From assembly GCA_025455885.1 (NCBI GenBank), contig JALOLR010000001.1, positions 257,441-321,440 on the forward strand: DNA of 64,000 nucleotides. The letters run 5' to 3'. Positions 5,023 through 27,080 of the stretch are shown in pieces. The position numbers were made by a program, and so were the translations under genes. The notes under the pieces are model-generated. The model was not told the origin of the DNA and did no database searches. It saw nothing but the letters and a program-made list of their open reading frames with translations. Position 1 is the first letter of the stretch; every line of letters starts with the position of its first letter. Source of the DNA: Acidimicrobiales bacterium. GTDB lineage: Bacteria > Actinomycetota > Acidimicrobiia > Acidimicrobiales > Acidimicrobilacustridaceae.

Positions 5023-5042
5023 CGAGCGGGTGCTCGGCTGAG

Positions 5043-5603: not shown

Positions 5604-5639
5604 GCTCTCGTTCTCTCCTCAGCGACCCGTCGCCATAGG

Positions 5640-7737: not shown

Positions 7738-8468
7738 CGTCGAAGCCTCGAACGAGCTCGGGCCAGGTGGAACGTGAGTGAACGGCCCATCGCAGCCGGG
7801 AGTTCGCTGAGCAATTCACGCATGCCCGGCGACTCCGTGGCCAGCAACTGGGGGTGTACGGCGTCCGCGATGATGGGCCACAAGTTCGGGCGGTGACCGT
7901 GGATGCTCGGGTCGACGAAGAGGAAGAGGTTCTGTCGGCACCAGAATGCCACGTCTCGATCGTGCCAGAGTGCGGGTCGGACGACATCCCAGGCTTCGAA
8001 TCCGTTGCTGGCAAAGGCGTCGATCCAGTAGCTCTGCCAACGTTCGTTGATGTGCTCGACGCCACCCTGTTGAGGGATTGCGGCCGAGAAGAGGACCGCT
8101 GGGGCGAGGGCAGTCAACTCGCGGACGAACCCCTGCGCTCTCGCGGGTGGAAGGTGCTCGGCTACCTCGATGCTCATCGCAAGATCGAAGCGCTCATCCA
8201 CGGTGAGTGGTCGGGTGAGGTCTGTAGGCCTGAAGCAGGAACGGGGTATGGCCAGGAGCTCAGCCGGTACATACGGGCCGTCGAGGCCGATGACGTCGCA
8301 GGCTGTGAGCCCGGCAAGGGCGCTGAGCCAGTCCCCAGTGCCACACCCCACATCGATCGCTCGGGCAGGGGAGACGAACTCGAGAACGATCGGGAGCACC
8401 TTCGAAGCCGAGGCGCGAGCGCTCCCTGCGAGGCCTGCGTAGAAGTCATCGTCGTAGCTTCCATTCAC
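7734..8468 (-). CDS. Class I SAM-dependent methyltransferase
   Basis: A 244-residue methyltransferase: ARAIDVGCGTGDWLSAL is motif I (about residues 34-50), VIGLDGPY motif II, and FDLAMSIEVAEHLPP the motif-III region seen in the Methyltransf_23 type. The later part contains AAIPQQGGVEHINERWQSYW, a pattern common in sugar or small-molecule methyltransferases of polysaccharide clusters. It overlaps both neighbours by 4 bp, so it is within a translationally coupled operon of glycosyltransferases. With the Wzt-type exporter nearby, a role in capping or decorating the exported glycan is plausible but not shown. Confidence 0.82.
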   Translation of the reverse strand: MNGSYDDDFYAGLAGSARASASKVLPIVLEFVSPARAIDVGCGTGDWLSALAGLTACDVIGLDGPYVPAELLAIPRSCFRPTDLTRPLTVDERFDLAMSIEVAEHLPPARAQGFVRELTALAPAVLFSAAIPQQGGVEHINERWQSYWIDAFASNGFEAWDVVRPALWHDRDVAFWCRQNLFLFVDPSIHGHRPNLWPIIADAVHPQLLATESPGMRELLSELPAAMGRSLTFHLARARSRLRR

Positions 8469-9817
8469 TTGGGCTGGTCCTCGGCAGATCGGGTTCGAGC
8501 GGGTGACCGGCTACCAGGCGAGGATGACCGATGGCCCTCCTCGGCCCAGACGGGGAAAGCCGACGCTTCCTTGGCGAATCGGCCACTCGAGGTCGAGGCT
8601 CGAGTGTTGGATGGTGCGGTCTCCCGCTCCAGCATCAGCCTGTGGAGTTCGTCTGCCCGGTGCTCCCAAGTGTTGGCGCGGGCAAAGCGTATGGATGGAG
8701 TCGAACGTGTGCCCTCCGTCAGCGCCTCTTGGATGGCTGCGGAGAAGGAGTCGGCGGTCTTTGCGACGCGGACGGGCGGGGAAAGGGCGCGACATGCCGC
8801 AGAGTCGAAGGCGACCACGGGCAGCCCGTAGGCGCTGTACTCATAGACCTTCGTCGGGTTCACGCCGTCGCTGATCGGCCCGGCGACGAACGGGACCAAC
8901 CCGACGTGGGCGGAGCTGAGGAGAGCGATCTTCTCCGCTTCGGTCACCGTGCCCTTCACCTCGACATTGGGCAACAGTCGTAGCGCGGCAACGGTTGCCT
9001 CGGAGTTCACTCGCCCGGCGATGACGAACCGACAATGAGCAAGGCGCTCAGCAACTCCGGCCAAGAGGGAGGCGTCGAAGCGCCAGTCGACGGTGCCCAC
9101 GTAGACGGCGAGAGGGGGCCCAGCAGGGGCAGGCCGGTTCTTGACGATCAGGGCGTCCGACACGGCGTTTGGGAGCAGCCCGGCAGCAAGCCCGCGTCGC
9201 TGAAGCTCCTCGACGAGGCTCGGCGCTGTAGCCAGAAGGAGATCTGCCATGCGGGCCACCCGGGCTGTCGTCTTCCATACCGCGTTGGCGTCACCTTCGA
9301 AGATGGGGTCGATCACCTCGATGCCTCTGAGCACCCCGCGCCTGGCCTTAGCCCAATCCGAGAAAGCTCCCATCGTGTAGGTCCAGTACGACGTGACACC
9401 GATCGTGTGAAGCAGCCGATCCAGACTCCGGTCGTTCAACAGGGCAGCGACCCCGGGTCGCCTCCTGCGGAGCGCCTCGTACCCGCGACTCAATGACTGC
9501 GGGACGACTTCCACTCCACCGACCTGCCCGACGAGCCGTAGTCGGGGCCTCAGTCGGTGGAGGCGAGGGTCGGCGGGAGCGTCGTCAGCGCACACGTAGA
9601 TGACGCGGCGATGCCTGGCCAAATGCTGGCTGAGTTGGTATTGGCGAGATTCCCCGGCCCAGTACGGCCCTGGAAAGTGCATGACCACCGGAAGGCTGTG
9701 GCTCTTGGCCCCGACCGTCTTCTCGAAAGGTGCTTCGCTGTGGGGCGCTGAGATGGCGATGCCTACGGATGGCTCCCGCCCGATCGCAGACTGCGCAACC
9801 GCTTCTTGACCATTCAC
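8465..9817 (-). CDS. Glycosyltransferase (GT4/GT1-like)
   Basis: A GT-B glycosyltransferase of about 450 residues. The N-terminal part shows VVMHFPGPYWAGESRQYQL, where a glycine-poor acceptor loop replaces the usual GG. The C-terminal part has LAVYVGTVDWRFDASLL, CRFVIAGRV, VEVKGTV and a donor motif DGVNPTKVYEYSAYGLPVVA, typical of proteins with a KxxEYxxxGxPVV signature. The GTG at 9817 is chosen because it forms a GTGA overlap with the stop of the upstream gene; the frame extends to 9904 but that stretch lies inside the upstream coding sequence. The C-terminal 50 residues are low in conservation and rich in Ser/Arg. The sugar is unknown. Confidence 0.82.
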   Translation of the reverse strand: MNGQEAVAQSAIGREPSVGIAISAPHSEAPFEKTVGAKSHSLPVVMHFPGPYWAGESRQYQLSQHLARHRRVIYVCADDAPADPRLHRLRPRLRLVGQVGGVEVVPQSLSRGYEALRRRRPGVAALLNDRSLDRLLHTIGVTSYWTYTMGAFSDWAKARRGVLRGIEVIDPIFEGDANAVWKTTARVARMADLLLATAPSLVEELQRRGLAAGLLPNAVSDALIVKNRPAPAGPPLAVYVGTVDWRFDASLLAGVAERLAHCRFVIAGRVNSEATVAALRLLPNVEVKGTVTEAEKIALLSSAHVGLVPFVAGPISDGVNPTKVYEYSAYGLPVVAFDSAACRALSPPVRVAKTADSFSAAIQEALTEGTRSTPSIRFARANTWEHRADELHRLMLERETAPSNTRASTSSGRFAKEASAFPVWAEEGHRSSSPGSRSPARTRSAEDQPK

Positions 9818-11691
9818 GTGACGACCACGCCCGAGCCGGCGCTCAGTCGCATAGGTGGGGGTCCGAATCTCCGAAGCGCGTAGCTCGCCATGCCGCGCAG
9901 GCATGCTCTCTTCTCGCTCGCCGGCTCCGGTCCCACCACGACCCGATGTAACTGCCGGAGCGCGAGATCGAGTGCTGACTTTTGGCCCCCATACTTCCGG
10001 TATGTCTCCAACATGTTCCGAGTCGACAGGTACGCGGTTACTCGGCGACGTTCGGGATCCTGTCCACCAGCCCGTTGGCTGGCTCTGTGGTCACCCGAGA
10101 CAGCGACACGCCAGCCGCTGCTCCTGAGTCGGAGGCCGAGGTCAACATCCTCTCCATAAAGAAAAAAGCGATCATCGAACCCGCCGATCTCGATCAGCGC
10201 GCCCGTCCTCCCGACGAGCACGGCACCATCGAGCCAATCGACGTCGTGAAGACCGAAGTCGTAGGTTCCAAAGTGGAACGCCCCGCCTCGGTGAAATCCG
10301 CCGCCGCCGCTGAAGAAATCGCCCTCTGGACTGAAGAGCACCGGGCCGATCAGCGCCAGGCCGGGCTCCTGAATGATCGCGGCGCTGAGTTCGAGAAGTG
10401 CAGTGCGTGAGATGCAGGCGTCGTGGGTGAGGAGTACGGTGACTTGCCAGTTGTGCGCTTCAGCATATTCCAGTCCGCGATTCATCCCAGCGGAGTAGCC
10501 GAGGTTGACGTCGGACGACCAGATTTGGTAGTCCGTCCGCGGGGGTGAGGGGCAGGAAGCGGCACTGATGATGATGGCGATCTGGGATGCCGAGAACCCC
10601 TCATTGACCAGCAAGTCAGCTTGCTGGGTCGCTAGCCGACTATCCCGATAGGCCAGAATAATCACCCCGACCTTGTCGGCCAGGGATTCCGGGACGATCT
10701 CTCGGTCGCCTGCAAGGTGCGCCGCCTTGCCGGCCTGCATGAAATCGACTTCCGGTGAGCGCGGACGGCCGGGGCTCGACCTCGTCGGCTTTCCAAGAGG
10801 CACGTGTTCAATGACGCGCTTTAGGGCCCTATCTCCTCCGTCAACCCACTGTTTCGGAAGCCAGTCTGAGGTCCGGGCTCTGCGCCAAAATCTGCCCAGC
10901 TGTTGCCTAGCACCCTCCGGTGAGTCGAAGTCGAAGTACCGAGGCGCTGTCGCCAGGAGTGCCCGCTGCGTTGGATTGAGGCTTTCTGGCGAGCGGACAA
11001 TCACGCTCTCGCCAGTATGAGGTACGATACCGAGCGATCTCATGTTGAAGATATGAGTCTCGGAACGGTGTCTGGGGCGGTCGAGTTCCGCATGAGAGAA
11101 GGATGCGTACTTCTGGCCGACTGATAGCGCCTCTTCCAGATAGGTGAAGTGGGAGCCCGCGTCAGCCAGATGCAAGGCGGGGATGGTTGCCCGCAGTTCA
11201 CTTGGAGTGCCGAGCGCTCCGACTCGACAGGCTCGGGCTGCGGTCCAGGGATCGAAGAGCTCCCAATTGGCACGCCAGAAGCATGACCGTTGCGATAGAG
11301 CCGCGGTATCGAAAGGACGGAGCCGAAGATGCTCGAGCATGTTCGGATCGGGAATCTCGTCAGCATCGGCGATAATCGCGATGTCCTCTGGGTCTGCGTC
11401 ACCCAAGCCTCTGAGGATCGCGTCGCGCTGAAACCTCTCAGCTGCCCAGCGATCAGGGATCGGAGGTGGGAGATCCTCTACCACAACATGGTTGATTCGG
11501 TTGACGTGACGGGAGAAGCGATTGCGGTTCTCTTCGAAGTGGAGTGGTTTCGCTAGGCCGCTAAAGGTTCGGGTGGCTTCCACGAGCACGAACCGGTGAA
11601 CGACAGAGGAAAGATGGTCGAGCCGGAACTCCAAGAGGTCGAGCTCGGTCGAGAATGTGAAACAGTCGAAGATCCGGGAAACGCGAGTCAA
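9814..11691 (-). CDS. GT17-GT2 fusion glycosyltransferase
   Basis: A 625-residue two-domain enzyme. Residues 1 to about 290 resemble family GT17 (beta-1,4-mannosylglycoprotein N-acetylglucosaminyltransferase-like): FDCFTFSTELDLLEFRLD, FVLVEATRTFSG, KPLHFEEN and the metal site IADADEIPDP at 107-116. Residues 341 to about 600 are a GT2 domain: VGVIILAYRDSRLA, NLGYSAGMNRGLEYA, LLTHDACIS as the DxD-like segment, and FFLYGEDVDLGLRLR as the catalytic ED region, like rhamnosyltransferases. It overlaps its neighbours by 4 bp on both sides. Two catalytic domains on one chain suggest two successive sugar additions. The base composition looks less GC-rich than that of the housekeeping genes further right. 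Confidence 0.83.
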   Translation of the reverse strand: MTRVSRIFDCFTFSTELDLLEFRLDHLSSVVHRFVLVEATRTFSGLAKPLHFEENRNRFSRHVNRINHVVVEDLPPPIPDRWAAERFQRDAILRGLGDADPEDIAIIADADEIPDPNMLEHLRLRPFDTAALSQRSCFWRANWELFDPWTAARACRVGALGTPSELRATIPALHLADAGSHFTYLEEALSVGQKYASFSHAELDRPRHRSETHIFNMRSLGIVPHTGESVIVRSPESLNPTQRALLATAPRYFDFDSPEGARQQLGRFWRRARTSDWLPKQWVDGGDRALKRVIEHVPLGKPTRSSPGRPRSPEVDFMQAGKAAHLAGDREIVPESLADKVGVIILAYRDSRLATQQADLLVNEGFSASQIAIIISAASCPSPPRTDYQIWSSDVNLGYSAGMNRGLEYAEAHNWQVTVLLTHDACISRTALLELSAAIIQEPGLALIGPVLFSPEGDFFSGGGGFHRGGAFHFGTYDFGLHDVDWLDGAVLVGRTGALIEIGGFDDRFFLYGEDVDLGLRLRSSGWRVAVSGDHRASQRAGGQDPERRRVTAYLSTRNMLETYRKYGGQKSALDLALRQLHRVVVGPEPASEKRACLRGMASYALRRFGPPPMRLSAGSGVVVT

Positions 11692-12935
11692 CTGCCCGAC
11701 CTTGCTGACGTTGGCCGGGGGAGGGGGTCTATGGTCTGAGACACATACGAAAAGTCCGGGAGCACTGTGGACGAAGCGAGCGCCTCTTGAATGTTGTCGC
11801 CCGGGAACGGAATTGAGGGTCCAACACGGAAATGAGCGGCACCCTCGACAGCGTCAACGATTCCAGGGCTACATGCAAAGAGGTCGACTCGATATTCGCC
11901 GGGTAGTAGCCAGGGTTGGACCATTCGGAGGGTGACAACATGGGTCTCCGAGGGTTCGAGCCAGAGGCCGATGAGGCGGGAGTCGCACTGGGCGATCACG
12001 GTGCCCTTGCTGTCGACGATATGGGCGGAGACGAAGTAGGGAGCGGTCGCCTCCGTGGTAGGGGTGACGGTGAACCGCACCCCCTTGGGCGAGGTGGCCT
12101 TGTCGGGATCCCCGACCACGACAACATCATCGATGTGAAGCACTGCCTCAGGGCTGCGGCGTCGTTGTTGCGGACGGTCGGTCCTTATCGATCCGATGTA
12201 GGCGTCCGCTGCTTCGATCACTGCACCGTCGAACGCAAGCGCACCGTCCATGAGGAGGATGGCCCGATCGCAGAGCTGGGTGATGGAGGCGAGCTGGTGG
12301 CTGACGAACAGCACCGTGCGCCCGTCGACGGCGACGTCGTGCATCTTGCCGAGGCACTTCTTCTGGAACTCCTGGTCGCCGACCGCCAGAACCTCGTCGA
12401 CGAGAAGGATCTCGGTCTCGAGGTGCGCGGCGACGGCAAACGCCAGGCGCACGTACATGCCGCTGGAGTAGCGCTTCACCGGGGTGTCGAGGAACTTCTC
12501 GACGCCGGCGAAGTCGACGATGGCGTCGAACTGGCGGTCAATCTCCTTGCGGCTCATGCCCAGGATCGACCCGTTCAGGTACACGTTCTCCCGCCCCGTG
12601 AGTTCGGGATGGAAGCCCGTCCCGACCTCGAGTAGCGACCCGACCCGCCCCCACAGGTCGATGCGGCCGGCGGTGGGGCCGGTGATGCGGGTGAGCAGCT
12701 TCAGCAGCGTGCTCTTGCCGGCGCCGTTGCGGCCGATCACGCCGAGCACCTCGCCCTGCTTCACCTCGAAGCTCACGTCGCGTAGCGCCCAGAAGTCCTC
12801 GCGCTCGTTGCGTCGGAACGGGTGCTTCGCTCGCTCCAACGCCACCTGGGCCAGGGTGACGTGGTCGTTGGTCTGGTGGCGGATCGTGTAGGCCTTGCCC
12901 AGGCCCTCGACGCGGATGGCGACGTCAGATGACAT
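11688..12935 (-). CDS. Wzt-type polysaccharide ABC transporter ATP-binding protein
   Basis: The 415-residue ATPase of a polysaccharide exporter. Walker A GRNGAGKS at 68-75, Q-loop region GSLLEVGTGFHPELTG, ABC signature YSSGM at 156-160 and Walker B ILLVDE at 176-181 are all intact. Residues 265-400 form an extra beta-rich domain (VRFTVTPTTEATAPYFVSAHI, ETHVVTLRMVQPWLLPGEYRVDLF) matching the Wzt C-terminal domain, which in characterised O-antigen systems binds the modified non-reducing end of the glycan. It overlaps the Wzm permease gene upstream by 11 bp and the glycosyltransferase downstream by 4 bp. Energises export of a lipid-linked polysaccharide across the cytoplasmic membrane. Confidence 0.92.
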   Translation of the reverse strand: MSSDVAIRVEGLGKAYTIRHQTNDHVTLAQVALERAKHPFRRNEREDFWALRDVSFEVKQGEVLGVIGRNGAGKSTLLKLLTRITGPTAGRIDLWGRVGSLLEVGTGFHPELTGRENVYLNGSILGMSRKEIDRQFDAIVDFAGVEKFLDTPVKRYSSGMYVRLAFAVAAHLETEILLVDEVLAVGDQEFQKKCLGKMHDVAVDGRTVLFVSHQLASITQLCDRAILLMDGALAFDGAVIEAADAYIGSIRTDRPQQRRRSPEAVLHIDDVVVVGDPDKATSPKGVRFTVTPTTEATAPYFVSAHIVDSKGTVIAQCDSRLIGLWLEPSETHVVTLRMVQPWLLPGEYRVDLFACSPGIVDAVEGAAHFRVGPSIPFPGDNIQEALASSTVLPDFSYVSQTIDPLPRPTSARSGS

Positions 12936-13785
12936 CGGCGAACTGCCTCTCCATGCGACTGAAGATCACCGTGCCGACGGCCAGCACCAGGAGCGACACG
13001 CCGATGGCGTAGGCCGCCAGTGCCGCCGACGGCCGGGGGGTGCCGATGAGCGACCAGCGCATCCCCTCCAGCAGGCCCGTCAGCGGGTTCAGCTCGATCA
13101 GCCACTGGGCGTCGGCGGGCACGTCGGCCAGCGTGTAGGCCACCGGGCTGGCGAACAGCAGGAACTGCACGGCGACCGGCAAAATGTAGGAGATGTCGCG
13201 GTAGCGCACCATCAGCGCCCCGGCGGCGAGGCCGATCCCGAGGCCCAGAGCGACGACCATCAGGAACCACAGGGGAAAGGTGATGAACCCCAGACCGGGG
13301 CGCACCCCGGTGACCCCCAGGAGCACGAGCAACAGGGCCAACGACACGACCGCATCGACCATGGTCGAGAGCACGGTGGAGATCGGCAGCAACAGCCTGG
13401 GGAAGTACACCTTGCCGACCAGCTGGGCGTTGCCGACCAGCGAGCCGCTGGCCCGGTTGGTCACCTGACTGAACGCCGTCCACGCCACCATGCCGGCCAG
13501 GGTGAACACGTAGTACGGGACGTCGGGCGACGGGCTGGGGAGGTCGGCCACCCCGCCGAACACGAAGGTCAGGATCCCTGCCGCCAGCAGCGGTACCAGG
13601 ATCACCCAGATCACCCCGAGGGCGGTCTGGCGGTAGCGCAGCGTGATGTCGCGCGCTGCGAAGCGCACCGTGAGCTCGCGGAACGACCACAGCTCCTTCG
13701 GCGACGCGGGCAGCCACGAGCGTCGCGGCTTGATGGTGATGAGGGGCGGGGGGGCCACCGAGGCGGTCACGGAATCGCTGGACAC
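12925..13785 (-). CDS. Wzm-type polysaccharide ABC transporter permease
   Basis: A 286-residue ABC-2 family membrane protein with about six hydrophobic segments: GVIWVILVPLLAAGILTFVFG, YYVFTLAGMVAWTAFSQV, VVSLALLLVLLGVTG, FLMVVALGLGIGLAAGAL, VQFLLFASPVAYTL and AYAIGVSLLVLAVGTVIF. The N-terminal ARDITLRYRQTALGVIW motif is the usual cytoplasmic entry of Wzm/TagG-like permeases. It begins with GTG at 13785, 43 bp after the sugar transferase, and overlaps the ATPase gene by 11 bp. Together they form the export pore for the polysaccharide made by the surrounding enzymes. Confidence 0.92.
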   Translation of the reverse strand: MSSDSVTASVAPPPLITIKPRRSWLPASPKELWSFRELTVRFAARDITLRYRQTALGVIWVILVPLLAAGILTFVFGGVADLPSPSPDVPYYVFTLAGMVAWTAFSQVTNRASGSLVGNAQLVGKVYFPRLLLPISTVLSTMVDAVVSLALLLVLLGVTGVRPGLGFITFPLWFLMVVALGLGIGLAAGALMVRYRDISYILPVAVQFLLFASPVAYTLADVPADAQWLIELNPLTGLLEGMRWSLIGTPRPSAALAAYAIGVSLLVLAVGTVIFSRMERQFADVI

Positions 13786-13828
13786 GAGGCCTGGAGTCTA
13801 CGACCGGGAGGGCGCGGGGTCGACGACC

Positions 13829-14524
13829 TCACCGGGGGCCGAAGCAGCGCCGCCACAGCACCGCCGGGGTGCGCACGAAGATGTCGAGGTCCATGCGCAG
13901 CGTCCACTCGTCGACGTAGCGCAGGTCCAGCTCGGTGTACTTGCCGAAGTCCGGGTCGGTGTGCCCGTCGAGCTGCCACAGCCCGGTGATCCCCTGGGGC
14001 ATCAGCTCCCGGCGGCGCAGCTCGTCGGGGAACTGGGCGGCCTCGGCGGGCAACGCCGGACGGGGCCCGATGATGCTCATCGTCCCTTCGAGGACGTTCA
14101 CGAACTGGGGGAGCTCGTCGAGGCTCGTGCGGCGCAACCAGCGGCCCGACCGGGTCACCCGGGGGTCGTCGGCCACCTTGAACAGCGGGCCCCGACGCTC
14201 GTTGACGTGGGCCAGGTCGGCCTTGCGCCGCTCGGCGTCGCGCACCATCGTCCGGAACTTGTAGATGGTGAACAGCCGCCCGTCGCGCCCCAGGCGGGTC
14301 TGGCGGAAGATCACCGGTCCGCCGTCGTCGAGCCAGATCATCACCGCGATGGCGGCGAAGAGCGGCGAGAGCACCACCAGCACCACCGCCGCCACCACCA
14401 CGTCGAACAGCCGCTTCACCCACAGCCGCACCGTGCGCTTCGGGGGCCGGCGCAGCACCGGGCGCACCGACGGGACGACCGACGGTGCCGAGCTCTCCAC
14501 CGCCGTTCTCTCGACTGCGCTCAC
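13829..14524 (-). CDS. Polyprenyl-phosphate sugar-1-phosphate transferase (initiating)
   Basis: A 231-residue bacterial sugar transferase (WcaJ/RfbP C-terminal type) that loads the first sugar phosphate onto undecaprenyl or a related lipid phosphate. After a cytoplasmic stretch it shows [19 protein letters not shown] (membrane hairpin), [45 protein letters not shown] and [11 protein letters not shown], the full family signature. The GTG at 14524 is preceded by AGGAG at 7-nt spacing, so the longer frame to 14602 is unlikely. As first gene of the minus-strand operon it makes the lipid acceptor extended by the glycosyltransferases and exported by Wzm/Wzt. Confidence 0.92.
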
Positions 14525-14569
14525 CGTGTCTCCTGGTTCCCGGGCGGGGGTCCTGGGCTCCCGTCGCCG

Positions 14570-14575
14570 ACAGTA
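14570..14575 (-). promoter_or_regulatory. Candidate -10 box of the polysaccharide operon
   Basis: On the minus strand TACTGT (TANNNT form) lies about 45 nt upstream of the GTG of the sugar transferase gene, leaving a short leader that contains the AGGAG ribosome site. No convincing -35 box is visible. Confidence 0.4.
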
Positions 14576-14647
14576 GCCGTGCCCCTGGCATCGGCACGCC
14601 ACTCCCGGGTCCTGTAACGGAGAGTTCTCGCGACGTCCTCCCGGACG

Positions 14648-16144
14648 TCACCCCGCCGGCGCCCCCGCCCCCGGCGTCGCCGCCTCGAACGCGGTGCGCA
14701 CCGCCGCCACCGCGTCGTCCACCGGCATCCGAGGCAGCGCGATGGCGGGCACCGTCTCGCAGAGCGCGGCGAGCACGTCGAGGGCGCCGGTCACCGCGAA
14801 CGTCTCCGCGAACGTCGAGCGCAACAGCTCCACCAGGGCGTCCACCGGGGCGAGGGGCGTGGCCACCGGCGTGTCCTCCGGGTCGGCACCGTCGGGCCGA
14901 CCCAACAGCACCAGCAGCGTCGGGGTGCCACCCGACGACACCGTCCCCAGCCGCGTCGGCACCACCCGCTCCTTGGCCACCCGCTCGTCGCCGGCCGGCT
15001 CGAGCCCCAGCAACCGCTGGGAGTCCACCGACAGATCCAGCGCTTTCGGATACGGCGCCACCCGGCCGGTGCCGGGGTCGAGCAGCACCAGCTCGTCGGT
15101 CACGTAGGCGAACCCGGCCTGCACCAGCGCGGCGGTGAGCGTGCTCTTGCCGCGCCCGCTCTCCCCGGCGACCACCACCACCCGGCCGTCGCGCTCCACC
15201 GCCCCGGCATGCCACAGCACCCGACCGGTCGACCCGGCGATGGCCACCAGGTTCAGCTGAGTCATCAACGTCTCCAGCGCCTCGGCCCCGTCGGCCGCCG
15301 CCGACACCACCTGGCCGTCGAGCACCACCCGCCACCGCCCCCCGGACGAGGGCGGCACCAGCCATGCGGTGTGCTCGGCGTCGTCGGGATCGGCCTCGTC
15401 GTCGTCGCCGGGCGCCTGCCCGTCGCCCGGGGGCGTGCGGGGGAGCGGGGCCAACAGGTCCTCGGTGGCGGCGGCCACGGCCTCGTCGCTCGTGCGCACG
15501 ACGAGGGTCGTGCCCGCCAGCCCCACCGGGCCCACCGTGTGGACCCCGTCGGTGCGGGCCAGGAGGCGCTCCACCGTCGGGGCCCACCGCTGCCGGCGAG
15601 CGGCGCGGGGGTCGCCCGGGTCGGGCTGACCGGGCGAGCGCGTCGGGGGAGGCTCGGGGGGCGCGTGGCTGCCCGCCGGGTGCACCAGGCCCTCGGCCCG
15701 GAACGACGTCAACGCGTCGGTCACGTCGGCGCGCAGACGGTCGGCGTCCACCCCGGTCTCGTCGTGGAGCAGCGCCACGAGGTCGTCGACGCTGCGCCGC
15801 CCGTCCACCGCGTCGAGGATCAGCCCGGCGCTCGGGTTCAGCACGTGGCACACCGAGGTCGCCCGGTCGAACACCACCAGGCGATCGCCGACCACGGCCC
15901 GCAACGGGTGCGGGTTGGGCACCAGCACGTCCGTCGGCCCCGGGGGCCGGAGCGGCTCGTTCAGCGAGAAGGCACGCACCCCGGTCCCGTCGCCGCAGCC
16001 GACGCACGGCGGGTCCCGGCGTGCGCCGTCAGGGGCGGCGGCGGAGGTCGGGCCACCACGCAGACGATCCCGGAGCCGGTCCCACACGCCGGCGAGTCTG
16101 ACGGGCGCGGCCGCAGCCGGTCCACCCGCCGGGAGGCGACCCAC
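14648..16144 (-). CDS. PqqD domain-HprK-like kinase fusion (copy A)
   Basis: A 498-residue cytoplasmic protein. Residues about 80-155 form a PqqD-like winged-helix domain (VVGDRLVVFDRATSVCHVLN, then RSVDDLVALL and ALTSFRAEGLV), the fold that binds peptides in PQQ and lasso-peptide systems. Residues about 310-490 resemble the HPr kinase/phosphorylase P-loop domain: WHAGAVERDGRV, Walker A GESGRGKS at 327-334, then a TDE segment at 349-351 in place of the HprK ADD. A CVGC pair at 47-50 could bind metal or redox partners. A 100-residue middle section with an acidic linker separates the domains. It is divergent from a Tat-exported protein gene 93 bp away and sits directly upstream of the polysaccharide operon. 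The phosphate acceptor is unknown. Confidence 0.8.
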   Translation of the reverse strand: MGRLPAGGPAAAAPVRLAGVWDRLRDRLRGGPTSAAAPDGARRDPPCVGCGDGTGVRAFSLNEPLRPPGPTDVLVPNPHPLRAVVGDRLVVFDRATSVCHVLNPSAGLILDAVDGRRSVDDLVALLHDETGVDADRLRADVTDALTSFRAEGLVHPAGSHAPPEPPPTRSPGQPDPGDPRAARRQRWAPTVERLLARTDGVHTVGPVGLAGTTLVVRTSDEAVAAATEDLLAPLPRTPPGDGQAPGDDDEADPDDAEHTAWLVPPSSGGRWRVVLDGQVVSAAADGAEALETLMTQLNLVAIAGSTGRVLWHAGAVERDGRVVVVAGESGRGKSTLTAALVQAGFAYVTDELVLLDPGTGRVAPYPKALDLSVDSQRLLGLEPAGDERVAKERVVPTRLGTVSSGGTPTLLVLLGRPDGADPEDTPVATPLAPVDALVELLRSTFAETFAVTGALDVLAALCETVPAIALPRMPVDDAVAAVRTAFEAATPGAGAPAG

Positions 16145-16165
16145 GAATCCTTACTCAGGAAAGAG

Positions 16166-16194
16166 TCGAACCGGCTCGGCAGTCCGTCTAGCAT
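16166..16194 (+). promoter_or_regulatory. Candidate promoter of Tat-exported protein A
   Basis: TCGAAC (16166-16171) and TAGCAT (16189-16194) are separated by 17 bp. The predicted transcript would start near 16201, leaving a leader of about 37 nt with a TAGGAG ribosome site. Confidence 0.45.
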
Positions 16195-16237
16195 CCCTGC
16201 TGCAGGGCCTCGTCCGATCCCCCGTAGGAGCCCCCTG

Positions 16238-16849
16238 ATGTCCGAGACCACGCCCGAGGCGCCCCCGCACCCGGGTCCGTCCCGCCGCACCGTCCTCAAG
16301 GGCGCCGCCGTCGGCGCCGGCGCGCTCTGGGTCACGCCCACCGTGCTGTCCCTCGGCGCCACCCCCGCCGCCGCCAGCCCCGCCGGCTGCAACATCTGCC
16401 TCCCGCCAGCCAACCAGCTGATCCCCCTTGCGGTGGGGAACGGGACTTCTCTGGTCGGCTGGACGAACCAGGCGAACATCGAGGCAGTGGGCGGGGTGTT
16501 CCGGACGTCCAACTTCTTCACGCAGGGCTCGGCCCGATTCGTCCCCCCGGATTTCACCACGGAGTGCATTGCTCGCTTCGCCAGCCAGACCCCCGTCGAC
16601 CTGACCCTCGCGGCGAATCTCACTGCGCCCGGCAGCCCCTCGTCGGTGACCGTCACCTTCTACAGCACCCCAGGTGGCGTCGGAACGCCCGTCGGTTCCC
16701 CGATCACCATCGCGAGCAACACAGTTCAATCGGCCAGTGGCCCCATACCCCCGGGGGCGGTCAGCCTCCGCGTCACGATGACCACAGGCTTCTGGTTGTT
16801 CGCCAGGGGTACCGTCGACAACATCACGCTGACCGTCGGTACCTGCTGA
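16238..16849 (+). CDS. Tat-exported Cys-rich beta protein (copy A)
   Basis: A 203-residue secreted protein of unknown function. The signal has twin arginines at 16-17 (SRRTVLKG), a hydrophobic core ending in LWVTPTVL at 30-37, and a likely cleavage after the Ala-rich ATPAAAS near residue 47. The mature part is Thr/Ser/Gly/Val-rich with alternating hydrophobic strands, suggesting a beta-sandwich, and has cysteines at 51, 54, 110 and the very last residue 203. The ATG has TAGGAG eight bases upstream. It is divergent from a PqqD-HprK kinase gene; a second similar pair lies downstream, so the two proteins probably work in the same system. No enzymatic motif was recognised. Confidence 0.8.
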   Translation: MSETTPEAPPHPGPSRRTVLKGAAVGAGALWVTPTVLSLGATPAAASPAGCNICLPPANQLIPLAVGNGTSLVGWTNQANIEAVGGVFRTSNFFTQGSARFVPPDFTTECIARFASQTPVDLTLAANLTAPGSPSSVTVTFYSTPGGVGTPVGSPITIASNTVQSASGPIPPGAVSLRVTMTTGFWLFARGTVDNITLTVGTC

Positions 16850-16857
16850 CGAAGCGA

Positions 16858-16935
16858 TGGTCGGGGAGGGGAGATTCGAACTCCCGGCCTCCTGCTCCCA
16901 AAGCAGGCGCGCTAACCAAGCTGCGCCACTCCCCG
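16858..16935 (-). tRNA. tRNA-Pro (anticodon UGG)
   Basis: A 78-nt minus-strand cloverleaf. The acceptor stem CGGGGAG pairs with CTCCCCG, followed by an A discriminator and an encoded CCA. The anticodon stem CCTGC/GCAGG closes a 7-nt loop TTTGGGA with anticodon TGG. The T arm GGGAG-TTCGAAT-CTCCC is perfect. It lies between the two kinase/Tat-protein pairs. Confidence 0.97.
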
Positions 16936-17036
16936 GACCGCCCGAGCGTACCGGCCCGCCGAAGCACCCCTTGATCCGTCGCCGGACGCGGATCCAACTC
17001 GCCCACGGGCGGGATGGGCGGCGCCGCAGCGGCGTC

Positions 17037-17042
17037 TAGCGT
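17037..17042 (+). promoter_or_regulatory. -10 box for leaderless kinase B transcript
   Basis: TAGCGT (TANNNT) lies 7 nt before the ATG of kinase B, and no ribosome site is visible, so transcription probably begins at or next to the start codon. Confidence 0.55.
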
Positions 17043-17049
17043 CGCCACG

Positions 17050-18285
17050 ATGTCGGACGGTGATCCGCTGGTCCAGCCCCCTGAGCACCTGCAGTCGGCG
17101 ATCGCCGGCGACTCGCTCCTCCTGCTCGACTCCATGGCCGGATCCACGTTCACCTTCTCCGGTGGTGCGGCGTTCGTGTGGACGTCGACCGTCGGCCCCC
17201 CGCTCCGGCCCTCCGACATCGCGCGTGAGATGGCCGAAGACATCGGGGGATCTGCCGACGATCACCTCCCCTACGTGCAGCGAACCGTTCGGCAGCTCCT
17301 CGACCAGGGCCTCCTCGTCCACGCCCGAAGTACGACAGCGAACCCCCGACCCGCACCGCCGCCCATCGCTCCGTCACGCTCCCGCCGGCTCGCACAGATC
17401 CGGGGTGCCCTGGCCGGCCGGAGCGGGCCGGCCTGCACCGTGGCGACCGGGGCCACGACGACCGAGCTCGTGAGCGACGACCCGGGGGACGGCCGGTTCC
17501 TCGCCGCAGCCCTCGCGTCGATGAAGGCCGAGACCAGCCAGCCGCCCGAGCACCAGATCGCCACCGTCCGCTCACGTCGCGCCGAGTTGCCGTTCCGCCT
17601 CTTCGTCGACGGCCGCCGACGACACCGCGCCGCCAATCGGGACGAGCTGCTCCGCCAGGTGGTGTTCGAGCTCAACGCGCTCGCCCGAGCCGTGAGCGGA
17701 GCCGCCGTCGCGCTCCATGCAGGGGCCGTCGAGCTCGACGGCAGGGTGCTGCTCGTCGCCGGGGAGAGCGGCGCAGGCAAGAGCACGCTGACCGCCGCCC
17801 TCGTCCAGCGCGGGGCGAGCTACCTGACCGACGAGGTGGCCGTCGTCCGCCTCCCCTCCGGTGGGGTCGCACCCTTCCCGAAGCCGATCGACCTCTCGTC
17901 GACGAGCCGGCGGCTGCTGGGGATCGCACCACCCCCCGAGGTCGGCGGCGAGGACCCGGTCGAGAAGCTTCCGCTCCCCGCGCCCTCCCTCGGCCCGACG
18001 TCGACCGGTGGCACCGCAGCCGCCGTCCTGGTGCTCGATCCGGAACCCTCCGGCCCGCATCCGATCGACGGCCCCGAGGCACGAGCGACCACCGTCCTCC
18101 GTCACGCGTTCCGCGAGCCGTTCGATCAGCCGTCGGGCGGCGAGCTGCTCCAGGCGCTGGTCGAGTGGTCGTCGAGGACCACGATGGTCCGCCTGGGCCG
18201 TGTGCCGCTCCCTGCCGCGTGCGACGTGGGGCTGGGCCTGCTCGCCTCGAGCCGTGCCGAAGCACGGACGCCACCGGGAGCGTGA
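17050..18285 (+). CDS. PqqD domain-HprK-like kinase fusion (copy B)
   Basis: A 411-residue paralogue of kinase A with the same plan. Residues about 12-92 form a degenerate PqqD-like domain (LLLLDSMAGSTFTFSGGAAFVW, then QRTVRQLLDQGLLV). A middle region ends in DELLRQVVFELNALA. The HprK-like domain starts at ALHAGAVELDGRVLLVAGESGAGKS (Walker A 238-245), followed by SYLTDEVAVV and VAPFPKPIDLS, closely matching copy A. The N-terminal CxxC of copy A is absent. The ATG at 17050 fits a TAGCGT -10 box 7 nt upstream and the lack of a ribosome site. It is followed 74 bp later, same strand, by its own Tat-exported partner. The kinase substrate is unknown. Confidence 0.8.
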   Translation: MSDGDPLVQPPEHLQSAIAGDSLLLLDSMAGSTFTFSGGAAFVWTSTVGPPLRPSDIAREMAEDIGGSADDHLPYVQRTVRQLLDQGLLVHARSTTANPRPAPPPIAPSRSRRLAQIRGALAGRSGPACTVATGATTTELVSDDPGDGRFLAAALASMKAETSQPPEHQIATVRSRRAELPFRLFVDGRRRHRAANRDELLRQVVFELNALARAVSGAAVALHAGAVELDGRVLLVAGESGAGKSTLTAALVQRGASYLTDEVAVVRLPSGGVAPFPKPIDLSSTSRRLLGIAPPPEVGGEDPVEKLPLPAPSLGPTSTGGTAAAVLVLDPEPSGPHPIDGPEARATTVLRHAFREPFDQPSGGELLQALVEWSSRTTMVRLGRVPLPAACDVGLGLLASSRAEARTPPGA

Positions 18286-18347
18286 GTCGTCCGGCCCCTT
18301 TTCCGGCGCGAGACCCTGGGGTGCAGGGGGAGCCGGGATAGGCGTTG

Positions 18348-18353
18348 TAGGGT
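18348..18353 (+). promoter_or_regulatory. -10 box for leaderless Tat protein B transcript
   Basis: TAGGGT lies 6 nt before the ATG at 18360. There is no Shine-Dalgarno sequence, so a leaderless mRNA is likely and this gene need not depend on read-through from kinase B. Confidence 0.55.
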
Positions 18354-18359
18354 TCCCCG

Positions 18360-19130
18360 ATGTCCGAGATCGAAGGTGTGGCCAATCACATGGACGCCGT
18401 GGACCGACGGCGGTTCCTCGTGAAGGCGGGAGCCACCGCCGCCGTCGCCGGTGGTCTCTGGGCCGCTCCGGAGATCCTGACGCCCAGCCGGGCCTTCGCC
18501 GGCACCAGCTGCGTGCTCAGAGCATCGACCTTGAACAACGCCTTGACGCCACCACAGTGGCGGACCCTGTCATGGCCGGCGTCCGGCTCCTATCCCGCTG
18601 TCGCACTGACCGTTCCCCCCGCGTCGAACATTGCGATCGGCAGTCCGAGCCCGAACACCGGCAACGCCTCCATCAGAGTCCCCGTCCTCACGGGGGTCGG
18701 CGTCCCGAGCGTCCCGGTGTTCTACTTCGATCTCAACGACGCCGACGGCACTGCCGGTGGCGGCGAGGGTTGGACCACCACCTTCGTGTTCTCGGTACCC
18801 GTCTTCAACGTCGAGTTTCGCGTCTGGGACATCGATCGCAACACGACGAGCGATGGGAACGGTCAGAACTACCGAGACTCGGTCAGCGTGACGGCCACGG
18901 GAGGGGCCACGGTGTCCGGGACGGCTCCGGGAGGCGGCGTGTCCGGGACCCCAGCGGGGCCGTTCCTCGGCGACATCGTGGGCAACGAGTTGGAGACCCG
19001 ATCATACGTCGACTTCTTCCTCAGTGGCGCCGTCACGAGCTTCACCCTCGTCTACAGGAACGCCATCCCAGCCGGTCAGGACGGAACCCGGATGATCATC
19101 GGGATCGGCGACATCGGCTTCTGCCGATAG
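18360..19130 (+). CDS. Tat-exported beta protein (copy B)
   Basis: A 256-residue secreted protein of unknown function. Arginines at 16-18 (DRRRFLVKAG) start a Tat signal whose hydrophobic core ends in LWAAPEIL at 33-40, mirroring LWVTPTVL of copy A, with likely cleavage after SRAFA at 47. The mature protein is Thr/Gly/Val-rich; the segment VEFRVWDIDRNTTS followed by DSVSVTATGG looks like a jelly-roll adhesive or carbohydrate-binding sandwich. Cysteines lie at residue 51 and at 255, the penultimate residue. The start at 18360 is supported by the adjacent TAGGGT box; an internal ATG at 18390 is less likely. It pairs with kinase B upstream and converges with the M15 peptidase gene. Confidence 0.78.
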   Translation: MSEIEGVANHMDAVDRRRFLVKAGATAAVAGGLWAAPEILTPSRAFAGTSCVLRASTLNNALTPPQWRTLSWPASGSYPAVALTVPPASNIAIGSPSPNTGNASIRVPVLTGVGVPSVPVFYFDLNDADGTAGGGEGWTTTFVFSVPVFNVEFRVWDIDRNTTSDGNGQNYRDSVSVTATGGATVSGTAPGGGVSGTPAGPFLGDIVGNELETRSYVDFFLSGAVTSFTLVYRNAIPAGQDGTRMIIGIGDIGFCR

Positions 19131-19148: not shown

Positions 19149-20204
19149 TCAGGCGGGCGCCGCGACCGCGGACGTCGTGGGAGAGGTCGTGGGCGTTGTC
19201 GTGGGATCCGGGACCGAGATCGCAGCGGTCCCCGCAGGCGGGGGCACGGTCACCGTGCGACAGCCCAACAGCACGTTGGTGCCCGGCGCCACCTTGTCGA
19301 TCGGGTAGACGCACACCTCCCACACGCCCGGATCGGCCGGCACGGTGACGTCGATCCCGTGGGGCTGCGACGAGTACGACGGGTACGCCGCCCCCACGTC
19401 CGGCCGGGGCGTGTTCGCCACGTGGCTGCCGCCCCACCACGGGCCGATGTACACGTGCACGTCGATGGGTGACACCTGGTCGGGGTCGAGCGCCCAGCCG
19501 AGCACCCGGAACCCGCCCGCCACCGGCCACACCGCCTCCAGGTTCCCGATCGGGCTCCCGCTCATCGGCAGGGTGTTGTACAGCCCGAAGTACTGGCCGG
19601 GGAACAGCTTGCCGCCGTCACCGATCCACTCCCAGTGCCACGGCTCGGGCACCGGGCCGCCCTGCTTCATGCCCTTCGGGTGGATCCAGCCGAAGATGCC
19701 GGCGTTGGCCACCAGCCACGCGTAGCCCGGGCTGTCGAAGGTCATCGGCGCCGAGCCCTCGCGCCAGTCGACCGCCTTACCCCACCCGTGGTTCGACGTG
19801 CCCGGCACCGCCGCCATGTGGCACGCCCCCCGGGCGCACCACGACTCGCGCGCCGCCACCTGGCCGGCGTAGTCGCGGTAGCAGCTCGACGGCGTGATCG
19901 TCACGCCGCCCGCCTTGGCCGCCGAGATCATCTCCCGCATCGACTGCGCCATCTCCCAGTACACCTTGCAGCCCGGCACGACCTCCACCAGGCGCTCCGC
20001 CCCCAGCTGGCCGTTCGACGCCCCGAACACCGGGTTGGCCCGGTTGTTCTCGTCGAGCTGGTAGCAGGCCGCGCCGACCAGCGTCAGCACCACCACCATC
20101 GCCGCCATCACCACCGCCGGACGACGGCGACGCCCGCGACCGACCGCAGCGGGCGGCGGGCCGGCGGGGGAGAGGAAGGACGCGGGGACGGACGGCACGG
20201 TCAT
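19149..20204 (-). CDS. Secreted M15-family D-Ala-D-Ala carboxypeptidase-like protein
   Basis: A 351-residue VanY-like zinc peptidase that probably trims peptidoglycan stem peptides outside the membrane. A transmembrane or signal segment (VVMAAMVVVLTLVGAAC) at 31-47 follows a basic stretch; GAAC could be a poor lipobox. The zinc motif SNHGWGKAVD supplies His139 and Asp146, and EPWHWEW supplies Glu187 and His190. Residues about 215-325 form a second Trp/Pro-rich beta domain of unknown role, then a Thr/Pro tail. The ATG at 20204 has GGAG 7 nt upstream; the open frame to 20561 runs back through the tig promoter and is not coding. Divergent from tig. Confidence 0.85.
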   Translation of the reverse strand: MTVPSVPASFLSPAGPPPAAVGRGRRRRPAVVMAAMVVVLTLVGAACYQLDENNRANPVFGASNGQLGAERLVEVVPGCKVYWEMAQSMREMISAAKAGGVTITPSSCYRDYAGQVAARESWCARGACHMAAVPGTSNHGWGKAVDWREGSAPMTFDSPGYAWLVANAGIFGWIHPKGMKQGGPVPEPWHWEWIGDGGKLFPGQYFGLYNTLPMSGSPIGNLEAVWPVAGGFRVLGWALDPDQVSPIDVHVYIGPWWGGSHVANTPRPDVGAAYPSYSSQPHGIDVTVPADPGVWEVCVYPIDKVAPGTNVLLGCRTVTVPPPAGTAAISVPDPTTTPTTSPTTSAVAAPA

Positions 20205-25298: not shown

Positions 25299-27080
25299 AT
25301 GGCGATGGTGGATGTGAGTTCCGCAGCGGCACCGACCGTCGCGTCGGGTCCGCCCGGCCCTCCGGCCGGAGTGGTCGAAGCCAGGGCGGCGCAGGCCGTC
25401 GTCGAGCGCCTGCTCGCCTCGTTCGACCCCGCGCTGGTCACCGTCGGGGCCGCGGCCGAGCTCGTCGAGGTGTTCGCCTCCATCGAGAACCTCGGCGCCG
25501 CCGGCAAGGCGCTGGCCGCCAAGCGGGTCGCCGATGGCGGCACCTGGCGCCGCCAGGGCTACAAGAACCCCGCCGAGTGGTTGGCCCGGCGCTCGGGGGC
25601 CAAGGTCGGCGACGCCGTGGGCGTGCTCCGCACGGCCGACGCCCTGCACGGCCTCGAGGCCACCACCCAGCGGTTCAAGGCCGGGCTGCTGTCGCCCCGC
25701 CAGGCCCGGGCGGTGGCCGGCGCCGCCTCGGCCGACCCTTCCGCCGAGGGCGCCCTCCTCGACGCCGCATCGCGCGGGACGCTCGACGACCTCGAGCGCA
25801 CCGCCCGCCTGGTCCGCCAGGCCGCCTCCACCGAGACCGACGCCGCCCGGCGCCGGCGGTTGCACCGCGACCGTTCGGTGCGCACCTGGATCGACGACGA
25901 GACCGGCGCCGGGTGCGGCCAGTGGCGCCTCCCACCCGACGCCCACGCCCGCCTGGTGGCCTCCCTGGCCGGCGGCGCCGACCGTGCCTTCCGCCAGGCC
26001 CGGCGCGAGGGCCGGGTCGAGCCCGCCGCGGCCTACACCGCCGACGGGCTCATGGCCCTGGTCGACCACGACCGCGGCCTCGGCTCTGCCCCGGGTGGCC
26101 CGGGCGGAGCGCCCACCGGTCCCGCACCGACGCCTCGTGCTCCCGCTCCCGTAGGCGCCGCTCCTGTAGGAGCCGAACCCGTGGGCGTTGCCGACCGTGC
26201 GGGTACCGCTGCTGCGGCCACCGCCGACCCTTCGGGCACCGCCAACCCCGCGGGCGCTGCCGACCGTGCGGGTACCGCTGCTGCGGCCACCGCCAACCCC
26301 GCGGGCTTCGCTCCCAGGGGCCTCGCCGCTCCCGCGGGCACCGCTCCGGCCGTGCCGTCCCACCCGCCGGCGTCGCCAGCAACGTCCGAGGCGCACGCGT
26401 CGCCTGCGGGCCCGCTCGGGCCGGGCGCCCCGCCCGACGACGGGCCCGACCCGCCGCCCGGGCGCAGGCCGACCACCCGGTCGGGTTCGTGGCGAGACAC
26501 CAAGATCCTCGTTCGGGTCGACGAGTCGGCCCTGCGCAGGGGCGAGGTCGCCCCGGGGGAGCGTTGCGAGGTCGCGGGGGTGGGCCCCGTGCCCGTGGCC
26601 GCCGTGCGGGCGTGGATCGCCGAGGGAGCCTTCACCGCGGCGATCGTCGCCGACGGCGTCGACATCCGCGCCGTCGCCCACCTCGGTCGACGGCCCCTGG
26701 CCCAGCAGATCACCGCTCTCCAGTGGATCCACGGCGACCGTTGCGCCGTGCAGGGCTGTGCCCGCACCACCAATCTCGAGATCGACCACGTCGAGCCGTG
26801 GGCCCGCACCCGGCGCACCACCCTCGACGAGCTCGCGCCGCTCTGCCCGCACCACCACGATCTCAAGACCTTCCAGGGCTTCACCCTCGGACCGCTCGAC
26901 GCCGACGGCCGTCGAGCCCTCTCACCCCCGCTCGTGCCCCCGGCACCCAACCCCGAGGCCGGCGCCGCCCTCGACCACCCCGACGAGTGCGGCCCCGGCT
27001 GTGAGACCGATTGCGACGTCGAGGGCACCGACCCTGGCCTCCTGCGTGCCGCCCCGTCGTTGTTCGACGACTCGAGCTGA
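25299..27080 (+). CDS. 13E12/DUF222-family HNH endonuclease-like protein
   Basis: A 593-residue member of the actinobacterial 13E12 repeat family. The N-terminal 245 residues are the helical DUF222 domain (SIENLGAAGKALAAKRVADGG, YKNPAEWLARRSGAKVGDA). Residues about 250-390 are a low-complexity Ala/Pro/Gly linker with a 37-bp DNA repeat. The C-terminus carries the HNH nuclease motif CAVQGCARTTNLEIDHVEPW followed by LAPLCPHHHDLK. Such genes are multicopy and mobile in actinobacteria; their function is unsettled. It sits between folC and ndk, which are often closer together, consistent with an insertion. ATG codons at 25299 and 25305 are both possible. A candidate SOS box lies 84 bp upstream. 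Confidence 0.88.
   Translation: MAMVDVSSAAAPTVASGPPGPPAGVVEARAAQAVVERLLASFDPALVTVGAAAELVEVFASIENLGAAGKALAAKRVADGGTWRRQGYKNPAEWLARRSGAKVGDAVGVLRTADALHGLEATTQRFKAGLLSPRQARAVAGAASADPSAEGALLDAASRGTLDDLERTARLVRQAASTETDAARRRRLHRDRSVRTWIDDETGAGCGQWRLPPDAHARLVASLAGGADRAFRQARREGRVEPAAAYTADGLMALVDHDRGLGSAPGGPGGAPTGPAPTPRAPAPVGAAPVGAEPVGVADRAGTAAAATADPSGTANPAGAADRAGTAAAATANPAGFAPRGLAAPAGTAPAVPSHPPASPATSEAHASPAGPLGPGAPPDDGPDPPPGRRPTTRSGSWRDTKILVRVDESALRRGEVAPGERCEVAGVGPVPVAAVRAWIAEGAFTAAIVADGVDIRAVAHLGRRPLAQQITALQWIHGDRCAVQGCARTTNLEIDHVEPWARTRRTTLDELAPLCPHHHDLKTFQGFTLGPLDADGRRALSPPLVPPAPNPEAGAALDHPDECGPGCETDCDVEGTDPGLLRAAPSLFDDSS
26189..26294 (+). repeat. 37-bp direct repeat within the 13E12 linker
   Basis: Positions 26189-26225 and 26258-26294 are identical over 37 bp with a 69-bp period (23 codons). 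They encode a repeated ADRAGTAAAATA-like segment of the linker, so copy-number change would stay in frame. Confidence 0.8.

Follow-up and report, generated by a model that had tools for sequence, protein, structure and literature searches.

The 64,000-nucleotide (nt) stretch of DNA considered here belongs to an Acidimicrobiales bacterium (NCBI GenBank assembly GCA_025455885.1, contig JALOLR010000001.1, positions 257,441 to 321,440 of the forward strand) and is referred to below as the window, its first letter being position 1. Between positions 14,648 and 19,130 the window contains two genes for fused kinases, each with a PqqD-like domain of the RiPP recognition element (RRE) type joined to a HprK-like domain, RiPPs being ribosomally synthesized and post-translationally modified peptides. 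Each kinase gene adjoins a gene for a protein with a twin-arginine translocation (Tat) signal. Here we present a description of the two pairs, of their recurrence in related genomes and of their surroundings, together with an interpretation in which the partner's Tat signal is probably the docking site of the PqqD part and phosphorylation of the precursor by the kinase precedes its export.

Kinase A is encoded on the reverse strand (14648..16144) and has 498 amino acids when read from GTG 16144; a codon-usage gene caller favours GTG 15979, which gives 443 amino acids. Its PqqD/RRE domain lies at 15674..15919 and its HprK-like domain, with the segments HAGAVE, GESGRGKST, TDE and VAPYPK, at 14747..15253 (E 2.1e-39, Z=25000). 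The divergent gene on the forward strand (16238..16849) encodes Tat A, an exported protein of 203 amino acids with the sequence W-V-T-P-T-V inside its signal (16328..16345, forward strand). Kinase B is encoded on the forward strand (17050..18285; 411 amino acids, or 423 from ATG 17014), with a diverged PqqD/RRE domain at 17077..17325 and a HprK-like domain at 17674..18162 (E 4.3e-29, Z=25000). On the same strand and 74 nt 3' of it follows the gene for Tat B (18360..19130), an exported protein of 256 amino acids with W-A-A-P-E-I inside its signal (18459..18476, forward strand). Both hexamers are of the RRE-type form WxxPx[IVL]. A profile of such leaders (A3) scores Tat A with E 1.9e-12 and Tat B with E 2.4e-10, the two leaders themselves being rows of that profile. 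A gene for tRNA-Pro(TGG) lies between the two pairs (16858-16935, reverse strand). Both kinases, both Tat proteins and the tRNA gene had been recognized in an earlier reading of the letters and open reading frames without database searches (the sequence-only reading), and all are present where that reading placed them, with pair A divergent, pair B co-directional and polysaccharide genes adjacent.

The source genome comprises 3.29 Mb in 33 contigs. Genome-wide, kinase A has two matches at E<=0.001, both inside the window, and the Tat leaders of the WxxP subtype also number two, both beside the window kinases. Both leaders are rows of the search profile, so the informative point is the absence of a third.

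Kinase domains and the Tat signal motif

The two kinases are 44% identical over 198 residues, and the common segments listed in the sequence-only reading lie inside this alignment. The Pfam PqqD family PF05402 matches kinase A above its gathering cut-off of 23.4 bits (50.4 bits, E 2.9e-13) and kinase B below it (15.7 bits). With a PqqD profile built from 11 relatives and without the window sequences, the E-values were 1.1e-20 for kinase A and 1.3e-5 for kinase B (Z=25000), and the E-values given above for the HprK-like domains likewise come from a profile that excluded the window. The nearest named NCBIfam families of both kinases are HprK_rel_A (TIGR04352) and PqqD_rel_X (TIGR04353), both below their cut-offs. 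The kinases reach 68.7 and 63.2 bits with TIGR04352, far under its cut-off of 200, and the PqqD part of kinase A reaches 31.3 bits with TIGR04353 (cut-off 35), kinase B being absent among the matches listed. The HPr(Ser) kinase/phosphatase family TIGR00679 gave 17.3 and 22.6 bits against a cut-off of 240, and the likeness to HprK/P consists of weak matches to PF07475 and to the structure 3tqf.

A profile of 31 PqqD domains from kinase loci was compared with the PDB. The top two matches were the lasso-peptide RREs TbiB1 (5v1u, E 3.7e-15) and TfuB1 (6jx3, 2.4e-11), followed by PqqD (3g2b, 3.4e-10) and PqqC/D (1.6e-9) and then by LppB (5.2e-8) and PbaB1 (6.3e-7), while an 85-residue piece of kinase A, searched alone, found none of those RRE/PqqD structures. 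Because the full-length model of kinase A was poor, its PqqD domain was modelled separately; the resulting mediocre model (mean predicted local distance difference test score, pLDDT, 67.5) has three strands and three helices (beta3-alpha3), and the top Foldseek matches are again TbiB1, TfuB1 and PqqD, all weak (best E 1.4e-2), with a VIA Z of at most 4.7. By this model the N-terminal domain would be PqqD-like, and a structure prediction to the contrary, which the sequence-only reading had named as speaking against it, was not obtained. Several positions of the leader-binding pocket of LppB are kept in the 31-domain family when the numbering offset between the two is inferred: L32 is present in 29 members, position 33 is N or D in 27 and D70 is present in 23. 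Kinase A keeps L32, N33 and D70 and is without Y60. By family profile, this suggests that the PqqD domains belong to the RRE type to which the leader-binding RREs of lasso peptides belong.

The kinase-adjacent Tat genes have a common signal of the form RR-x(10-17)-W-x-x-P. Of the two window proteins, Tat B scores above the cut-off of the Tat signal family TIGR01409 (17.5 bits, cut-off 16.7) and Tat A below it (10.7 bits); with PF10518 Tat A reaches 18.8 bits against a cut-off of 22.7. Their mature parts show no significant similarity to each other. Across 99 genomes, a single distant match to Tat B turned up beyond the source genome and the matches to Tat A elsewhere were confined to the leader, and homology of the mature parts was rejected on these matches as a link between the kinases.

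Seeds for the leader profile came from the fetched loci described below, control regions among them, by way of a search pattern in which RR and WxxP were both obligatory; nine hand-picked leaders were added. Because the leaders had first been found by W-x-x-P, which makes circularity possible, separate tests were made with TIGR01409 and with position W+5. Tat signals found by TIGR01409 within 2 kb of kinases contain WxxPx[LVIFA] in 14 of 16 cases, compared with 0/20 for far Tat signals in the same genomes, a sample that excluded 7 far positives already known as leader-profile hits, and 0/20 in genomes without a kinase match; these 40 comparison signals were hand-picked. Over all TIGR01409 hits, the leader profile covers 15/16 of the near signals, 7/90 of the far ones and 0/30 of those in kinase-negative genomes. 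Of 43 non-redundant leaders, 42 have L, V, I or F at position W+5, which was not part of the first search pattern and which the leader profile may favour slightly, compared with 12 at W+4 and 14 at W+6; among the 26 leaders found by the pattern alone, 24 have one of these four residues at W+5 (by eye). By its sequence, the shared motif is the one, [Y/W]xxPx[L/V/I/F/A], that RREs of lasso peptides and of the clusters for linear polyphosphorylated peptides (LPP) bind, with paeninodin-type RREs preferring WxxP, as described by Popov et al. 2026 (PMC13381572). A sharp spacing between the W and the cleavage site was considered as an additional likeness to LPP leaders and rejected, the first AxA-like site placing the W loosely at -11 to -18. 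One homologous Tat family with the signal WxAP[KR][VI][DE]G[LF]S occurs near kinases at four loci (L047, L054, L106 and L143), and its gene directly adjoins the kinase gene in three of them.

Distribution of the kinases and leaders

Sequence was fetched for 104 regions around chosen, mostly better-scoring hits and combined with the window and 20 hand-placed control regions of 20 kb each (400 kb). Of the 2011 genes called in all of these, 113 encode the kinase domain, and the 94 whose score is 60 bits or more were counted. Leaders were accepted at 24 bits or more, with three loci (L039, L126, L133) allowed by hand down to 19 bits. With the leader profile run in six frames, a WxxP-Tat leader lies within 5 kb of 46/94 kinases, within 2 kb of 40/94 and within 0.5 kb of 30/94, and none was found in the 20 control regions. 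Leaders are 11 times as dense in the sequence up to 2 kb from a kinase (36 in 0.44 Mb) as in all other fetched sequence, with the controls counted in (12 in 1.68 Mb). An earlier gene-based count had a WxxP-Tat gene within three genes of 20/74 kinases; the six-frame profile was adopted because that count missed small genes, and a stricter regular expression was dropped after it lost true leaders.

At a wider scale, matches to a kinase/PqqD profile (A1) occur in 72 of the 296 class genomes sampled (E<=1e-10) and in 36 of 396 genomes of the phylum (1e-15), a sample that includes genomes of the same class (class and phylum being GTDB ranks). WxxP leaders (E<=1e-5) occur in 34 of the 296 class genomes, and 33 of these 34 lie among the 72 profile-positive ones. 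The profile matches in the kinase domain in 56 of the 72 (32 with a leader) and in the PqqD part alone in 16 (one with a leader). The class-wide searches scored at most 25 leader candidates and at most six kinase/PqqD candidates per genome, and the two 296-genome runs, made with the same settings, are taken as the same draw. Of the 59 leaders in the class sample, 26 have a kinase match no more than 5 kb away and 29 no more than 10 kb away. In 40 hand-chosen genomes a WxxP leader (E<=1e-3) occurs in 21 of 22 kinase-positive and in none of 18 kinase-negative genomes, compared with 22/22 and 13/18 for generic Tat signals; the 22 kinase-positive genomes were picked after many neighbourhoods had been viewed, a choice from which the class-wide run is free. 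At E<=1e-6, TIGR04352 hits are present in 19 of 61 genomes, a set made up of the source genome and 60 relatives, and none of the 61 has a hit above the cut-off. A search of named genomes with a closer alignment returned only nine distant relatives, in other phyla. The pairing of kinase and Tat protein is not due to chance: chance proximity is rejected by the neighbourhood and class-wide counts.

Polysaccharide setting and comparison with known systems

To the left of kinase A follow, in order, genes for a sugar transferase, an ABC-2 permease, an ABC ATPase and glycosyltransferases. The sugar transferase (PF02397, Bac_transf, 211 bits) occupies 13829..14602 on the reverse strand in its longest reading, the start being uncertain; the Wzm-like ABC-2 polysaccharide permease (PF01061, 69 bits) and the Wzt-like ABC ATPase (PF00005, 79.9 bits) lie on the same strand at 12925..13785 and 11688..12935. 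Kinase A is read in the same direction as these polysaccharide genes, with 45 nt between its stop and the longest reading of the sugar transferase, and we infer that kinase A, the sugar transferase and the ABC genes form one operon. The GC content is 0.60-0.68 across the polysaccharide cluster (window 1-14000) and 0.68-0.78 in the sequence to its right; because of this lower value the cluster may have been acquired. The tRNA-Pro gene is situated just past the edge of the cluster. Farther right, as judged by eye, an exported protein with a VanY/M15-like peptidase motif (SCYRDYAGQ, HGWGKAVDW) is encoded at 19149-20204 on the reverse strand and an open reading frame resembling HNH-endonuclease/DUF222 proteins at 25371-27080 on the forward strand.

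In the paired loci of other genomes the recurring neighbours are PqqD, NTP_transf_5, a polymerase-like membrane protein and a Wzz/Wzc-like protein. Within six genes of the 94 kinases, PqqD was found for 64, NTP_transf_5 for 38, Wzz/Wzc-like proteins for 21, polymerase-like proteins for 17 and a sugar transferase for 10, where 'polymerase-like' denotes proteins without a Pfam match and 'Wzz/Wzc-like' a Pfam match to the ATPase part alone. The 369 genes of the control regions include two Wzz/Wzc-like proteins and none of the other four. NTP_transf_5 (PF14907) is present in 21 of the 22 kinase-positive and 2 of the 18 kinase-negative genomes. One copy is encoded in the source genome (C1:247874-248602), some 9 kb to the left of the window; about 1 kb from this copy and about 10 kb outside the window lies a separate PqqD match (C1:246852-247019). 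The kinase is also found fused to proteins of this setting: L048:6408-8858 encodes a triple fusion of sugar transferase, PqqD and HprK-like kinase (817 amino acids), and at L125 the kinase is fused to a polymerase-like membrane protein.

A further architecture, in which an N-terminal PqqD domain is joined directly to a Tat signal, was found in nine proteins from seven genomes, including the source genome. The W is missing from the Tat signals of all nine, as might be expected if tethering in cis replaces the anchor. P-x-[V/I]-x-[S/T] is kept in 8/9, and the residue at P+4, the same place as W+7, is S or T in 8/9 (both by eye). The fusion of the source genome lies on another contig (G000:C13:34622-35020, L273) and has a Pro/Ala-repeat tail. 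In one such fusion (L109:8514-9074) the C-terminus, judged by eye, resembles a sorting signal of LPXTG type (LAFTG), a hint of wall anchoring.

Among the closest described systems are the LPP clusters found in capsule loci of Bacillota, which comprise an RRE, a HprK-like kinase, a nucleoside triphosphate (NTP) transferase, a transporter and a signal-peptidase-like leader peptidase (PMC13381572). According to the same source, the kinase puts several phosphates on Ser3 of the core, deletion of the NTP transferase left the detectable products unchanged, and the precursors, 35-200 amino acids long with highly variable C termini, were located by manual search. The systems considered here resemble LPP clusters in the PqqD-fold RRE, the HprK-like kinase, the NTP transferase in related loci and the leader motif [Y/W]xxPx[hydrophobic], as well as in the conserved leader with a variable C-terminal part, the polysaccharide-locus setting and the patchy distribution. 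Unlike in LPP clusters, the leader is a Tat signal, the substrates would be exported proteins (about 60 to more than 300 amino acids) whose phosphorylation is putative, and the window kinases carry their RREs as fused domains, whereas the LPP clusters have a discrete RRE; the NTP_transf_5 gene and the separate PqqD match lie some 9 and 10 kb outside the window. Tat A and Tat B do not show the LPP leader YxxPxVLxHQxIxFETxxS and have only WxxPx[VI] within the Tat signal, no other precursor search having been made. LPP clusters also have a SipW-like signal peptidase I (SpI) and an MsbA-like transporter; the ABC genes scanned in the window are Wzm/Wzt-like (PF01061/PF00005). A text search of PMC13381572 returned no mention of 'tat'.

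Likeness to the lasso peptides paeninodin and pseudomycoidin extends to the WxxP leader motif of paeninodin type, the B1-type RRE and the HPr-kinase homologue. For pseudomycoidin, a nucleotidyltransferase is reported to add one or two hexoses to the phosphate (review PMC8498205), and a nucleotidyltransferase is also present in most of the kinase-positive genomes here. Unlike in these lasso peptides, the substrate would not be a short peptide, and neither a macrolactam synthetase nor a B2 protease appeared in the Pfam results of the 15 window proteins scanned, which are part of the window genes. Because of the different leader and the absence of a cyclase among the proteins scanned, the window system is placed outside the LPP and lasso families as defined; it may work like them.

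The HPr-rel-A system (TIGR04352 HprK_rel_A, TIGR04353 PqqD_rel_X) has the same kinds of domain, with the window proteins scoring below the curated cut-offs, and we know of no described substrate for it. HprK/P itself is likewise a P-loop kinase and differs in its N-terminal domain. Tat proofreading chaperones are cytoplasmic proteins that hold the Tat signal until maturation is complete; they have unrelated folds, whereas the binder here would be a kinase-fused RRE. Our literature searches yielded no account of a PqqD/RRE kinase with a Tat protein as its substrate, with the mentions of PqqD or RRE beside 'twin-arginine' in genome or metagenome papers (PMC11763638, PMC11508158) left unweighed. 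The statement of the sequence-only reading that no described system has this composition holds for the exact composition, while the LPP and paeninodin systems come close to it.

Proposed function and alternatives

We consider it fairly probable that the Tat signal is where the PqqD part docks and that the precursor is phosphorylated by the kinase before export, because the parts correspond to those of the LPP scheme, the leader there being replaced here by the Tat signal. Each kinase would then act as a modification enzyme of RiPP type, with a Tat-exported protein for its substrate instead of a short peptide. Its PqqD domain would serve as an RRE for W-x-x-P-x-[I/V/L], a motif situated where the hydrophobic part of the partner's Tat signal ends, and docking would bring the precursor to the HprK-like domain, which would place phosphate on Ser (or Thr) near the border between leader and mature part or within the mature part. 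Docking would also mask the Tat signal until phosphorylation is done, much as dedicated Tat chaperones do; Tat export would follow, and signal peptidase would remove the leader, plausibly doing here what the leader peptidase does in LPP clusters. NTP_transf_5 of the related loci, and of the gene left of the window, probably decorates the phosphate with a sugar, as in pseudomycoidin, and the product probably has its role in the polysaccharide layer that the adjoining genes produce. A bolder version, in which kinase, RRE and NTP_transf_5 turn the Tat-exported protein into a phosphoglycan carrier, with a Ser-phosphate and a first sugar added in the cytoplasm and the polysaccharide of the neighbouring machinery either built on the protein or linked to it after export, is regarded as unlikely.

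The sequence-only reading had proposed capture of a partner segment by PqqD and modification by the kinase before export. This proposal gains indirect support from the WxxPx[IVL] motif, the match to lasso RREs and the co-occurrence across genomes, and it loses from the roughly half of the kinases that are unpaired. That reading had named a lack of neighbouring Tat proteins in most homologues as the observation that would speak against it, and the count falls on the line, with 48 of 94 kinases (51%) having no WxxP-Tat leader within 5 kb when this leader subtype alone is counted. Several further observations weigh against docking and phosphorylation. Kinases fused to PqqD in either order, the architecture of the window, have a nearby leader in 8 of 24 cases compared with 38 of 70 unfused ones, and among the best-scoring kinases (at least 150 bits) 7 of 17 have one. 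Several genomes carry leaders away from the kinase: 30 of the 59 class-sample leaders are separated from a kinase match by more than 10 kb or sit on a different contig, and these may be unlinked substrates or may weaken the link between kinase and leader. Genome G059 has a fused kinase and no leader, and in G001, a sampled genome of the same genus, a single distant kinase match was found and, at E<=1e-5, no leader. The Fisher p of 1.6e-22 for the co-occurrence treats related genomes as independent. As to the motif, the looser form [WYF]xxPx[LVIFA] occurs in 14/16 near, 3/20 far and 0/20 kinase-negative Tat signals, the far score being the adverse one, and two kinase-adjacent Tat signals are without the motif. 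No universal phosphosite was established among the 43 leaders, 26 of which have S or T at W+7. F74 and V63 of the LppB pocket are not conserved in the 31-domain family, F74 is missing from kinase A, and the pocket of kinase B has diverged (L32 to F, N33 to S, D70 to Y). With a two-row alignment, the AlphaFold model of full-length kinase A reached a pLDDT of 37.6. Three genomes (G018, G019, G020) contain RRE-Tat fusions without a kinase-domain match.

These last fusions would be accommodated by the main rival, in which binding of the PqqD domain to the WxxP Tat signal serves for chaperoning or timing only and the kinase acts elsewhere, for example on a polysaccharide assembly enzyme, so that the protein would be a regulator coupling Tat export to glycan synthesis. 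Kinase A lies just upstream of, and co-directional with, the sugar transferase and ABC exporter genes, and the kinase fusions to the sugar transferase and to the polymerase-like protein, together with the Wzz/Wzc-like (21/94) and polymerase-like (17/94) neighbours, point the same way. In the lpp cluster, however, the RRE and HprK-like pair phosphorylates the leader-bearing precursor itself (PMC13381572), and we regard such a regulator as possible and distinctly less probable than docking with phosphorylation of the precursor.

The kinases without a nearby Tat leader could also be explained if the real substrate were an unannotated small precursor peptide in polysaccharide or RiPP-like clusters and the WxxP Tat proteins merely co-travelled, a suggestion to which the size, variable C termini and manual discovery of the LPP precursors lend some colour. 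It is improbable in view of the RRE motif inside the Tat signals themselves with its hydrophobic W+5, of the near confinement of leaders on other contigs to genomes with a kinase/PqqD match, and of the existence of RRE-Tat fusions. The same fusions, which keep the Tat signal without the W in all nine proteins, would fit a WxxP subtype of Tat signal unrelated to PqqD, serving for instance translocation or anchoring, with the co-occurrence arising from genome size or lifestyle; many of the 18 kinase-negative genomes are indeed small (span 1.7 to 4.8 Mb). Against this, 13 of these 18 have generic Tat signals and none has a WxxP leader, genomes of 4.2 and 4.8 Mb included, and the leaders cluster strongly with the kinases in physical terms, which leaves this explanation highly improbable.

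If docking on the Tat signal and phosphorylation of the precursor hold true, the leader-reading logic of RiPPs would extend to whole exported proteins, and a single signal peptide would be both the docking site of an enzyme and the ticket for Tat export. The substrate class would be findable by sequence, as WxxPx[IVL] within a Tat signal, and a function would be at hand for a large set of HprK-like, PqqD and NTP_transf_5 genes in polysaccharide loci. The phosphoglycan carrier, if real, would mean a protein-anchored capsule built by RiPP-type enzymes, with the Tat signal as the RiPP leader. The biological role of paeninodins and LPPs is called unknown in PMC13381572, and the proposed system, if true, would bear on it.

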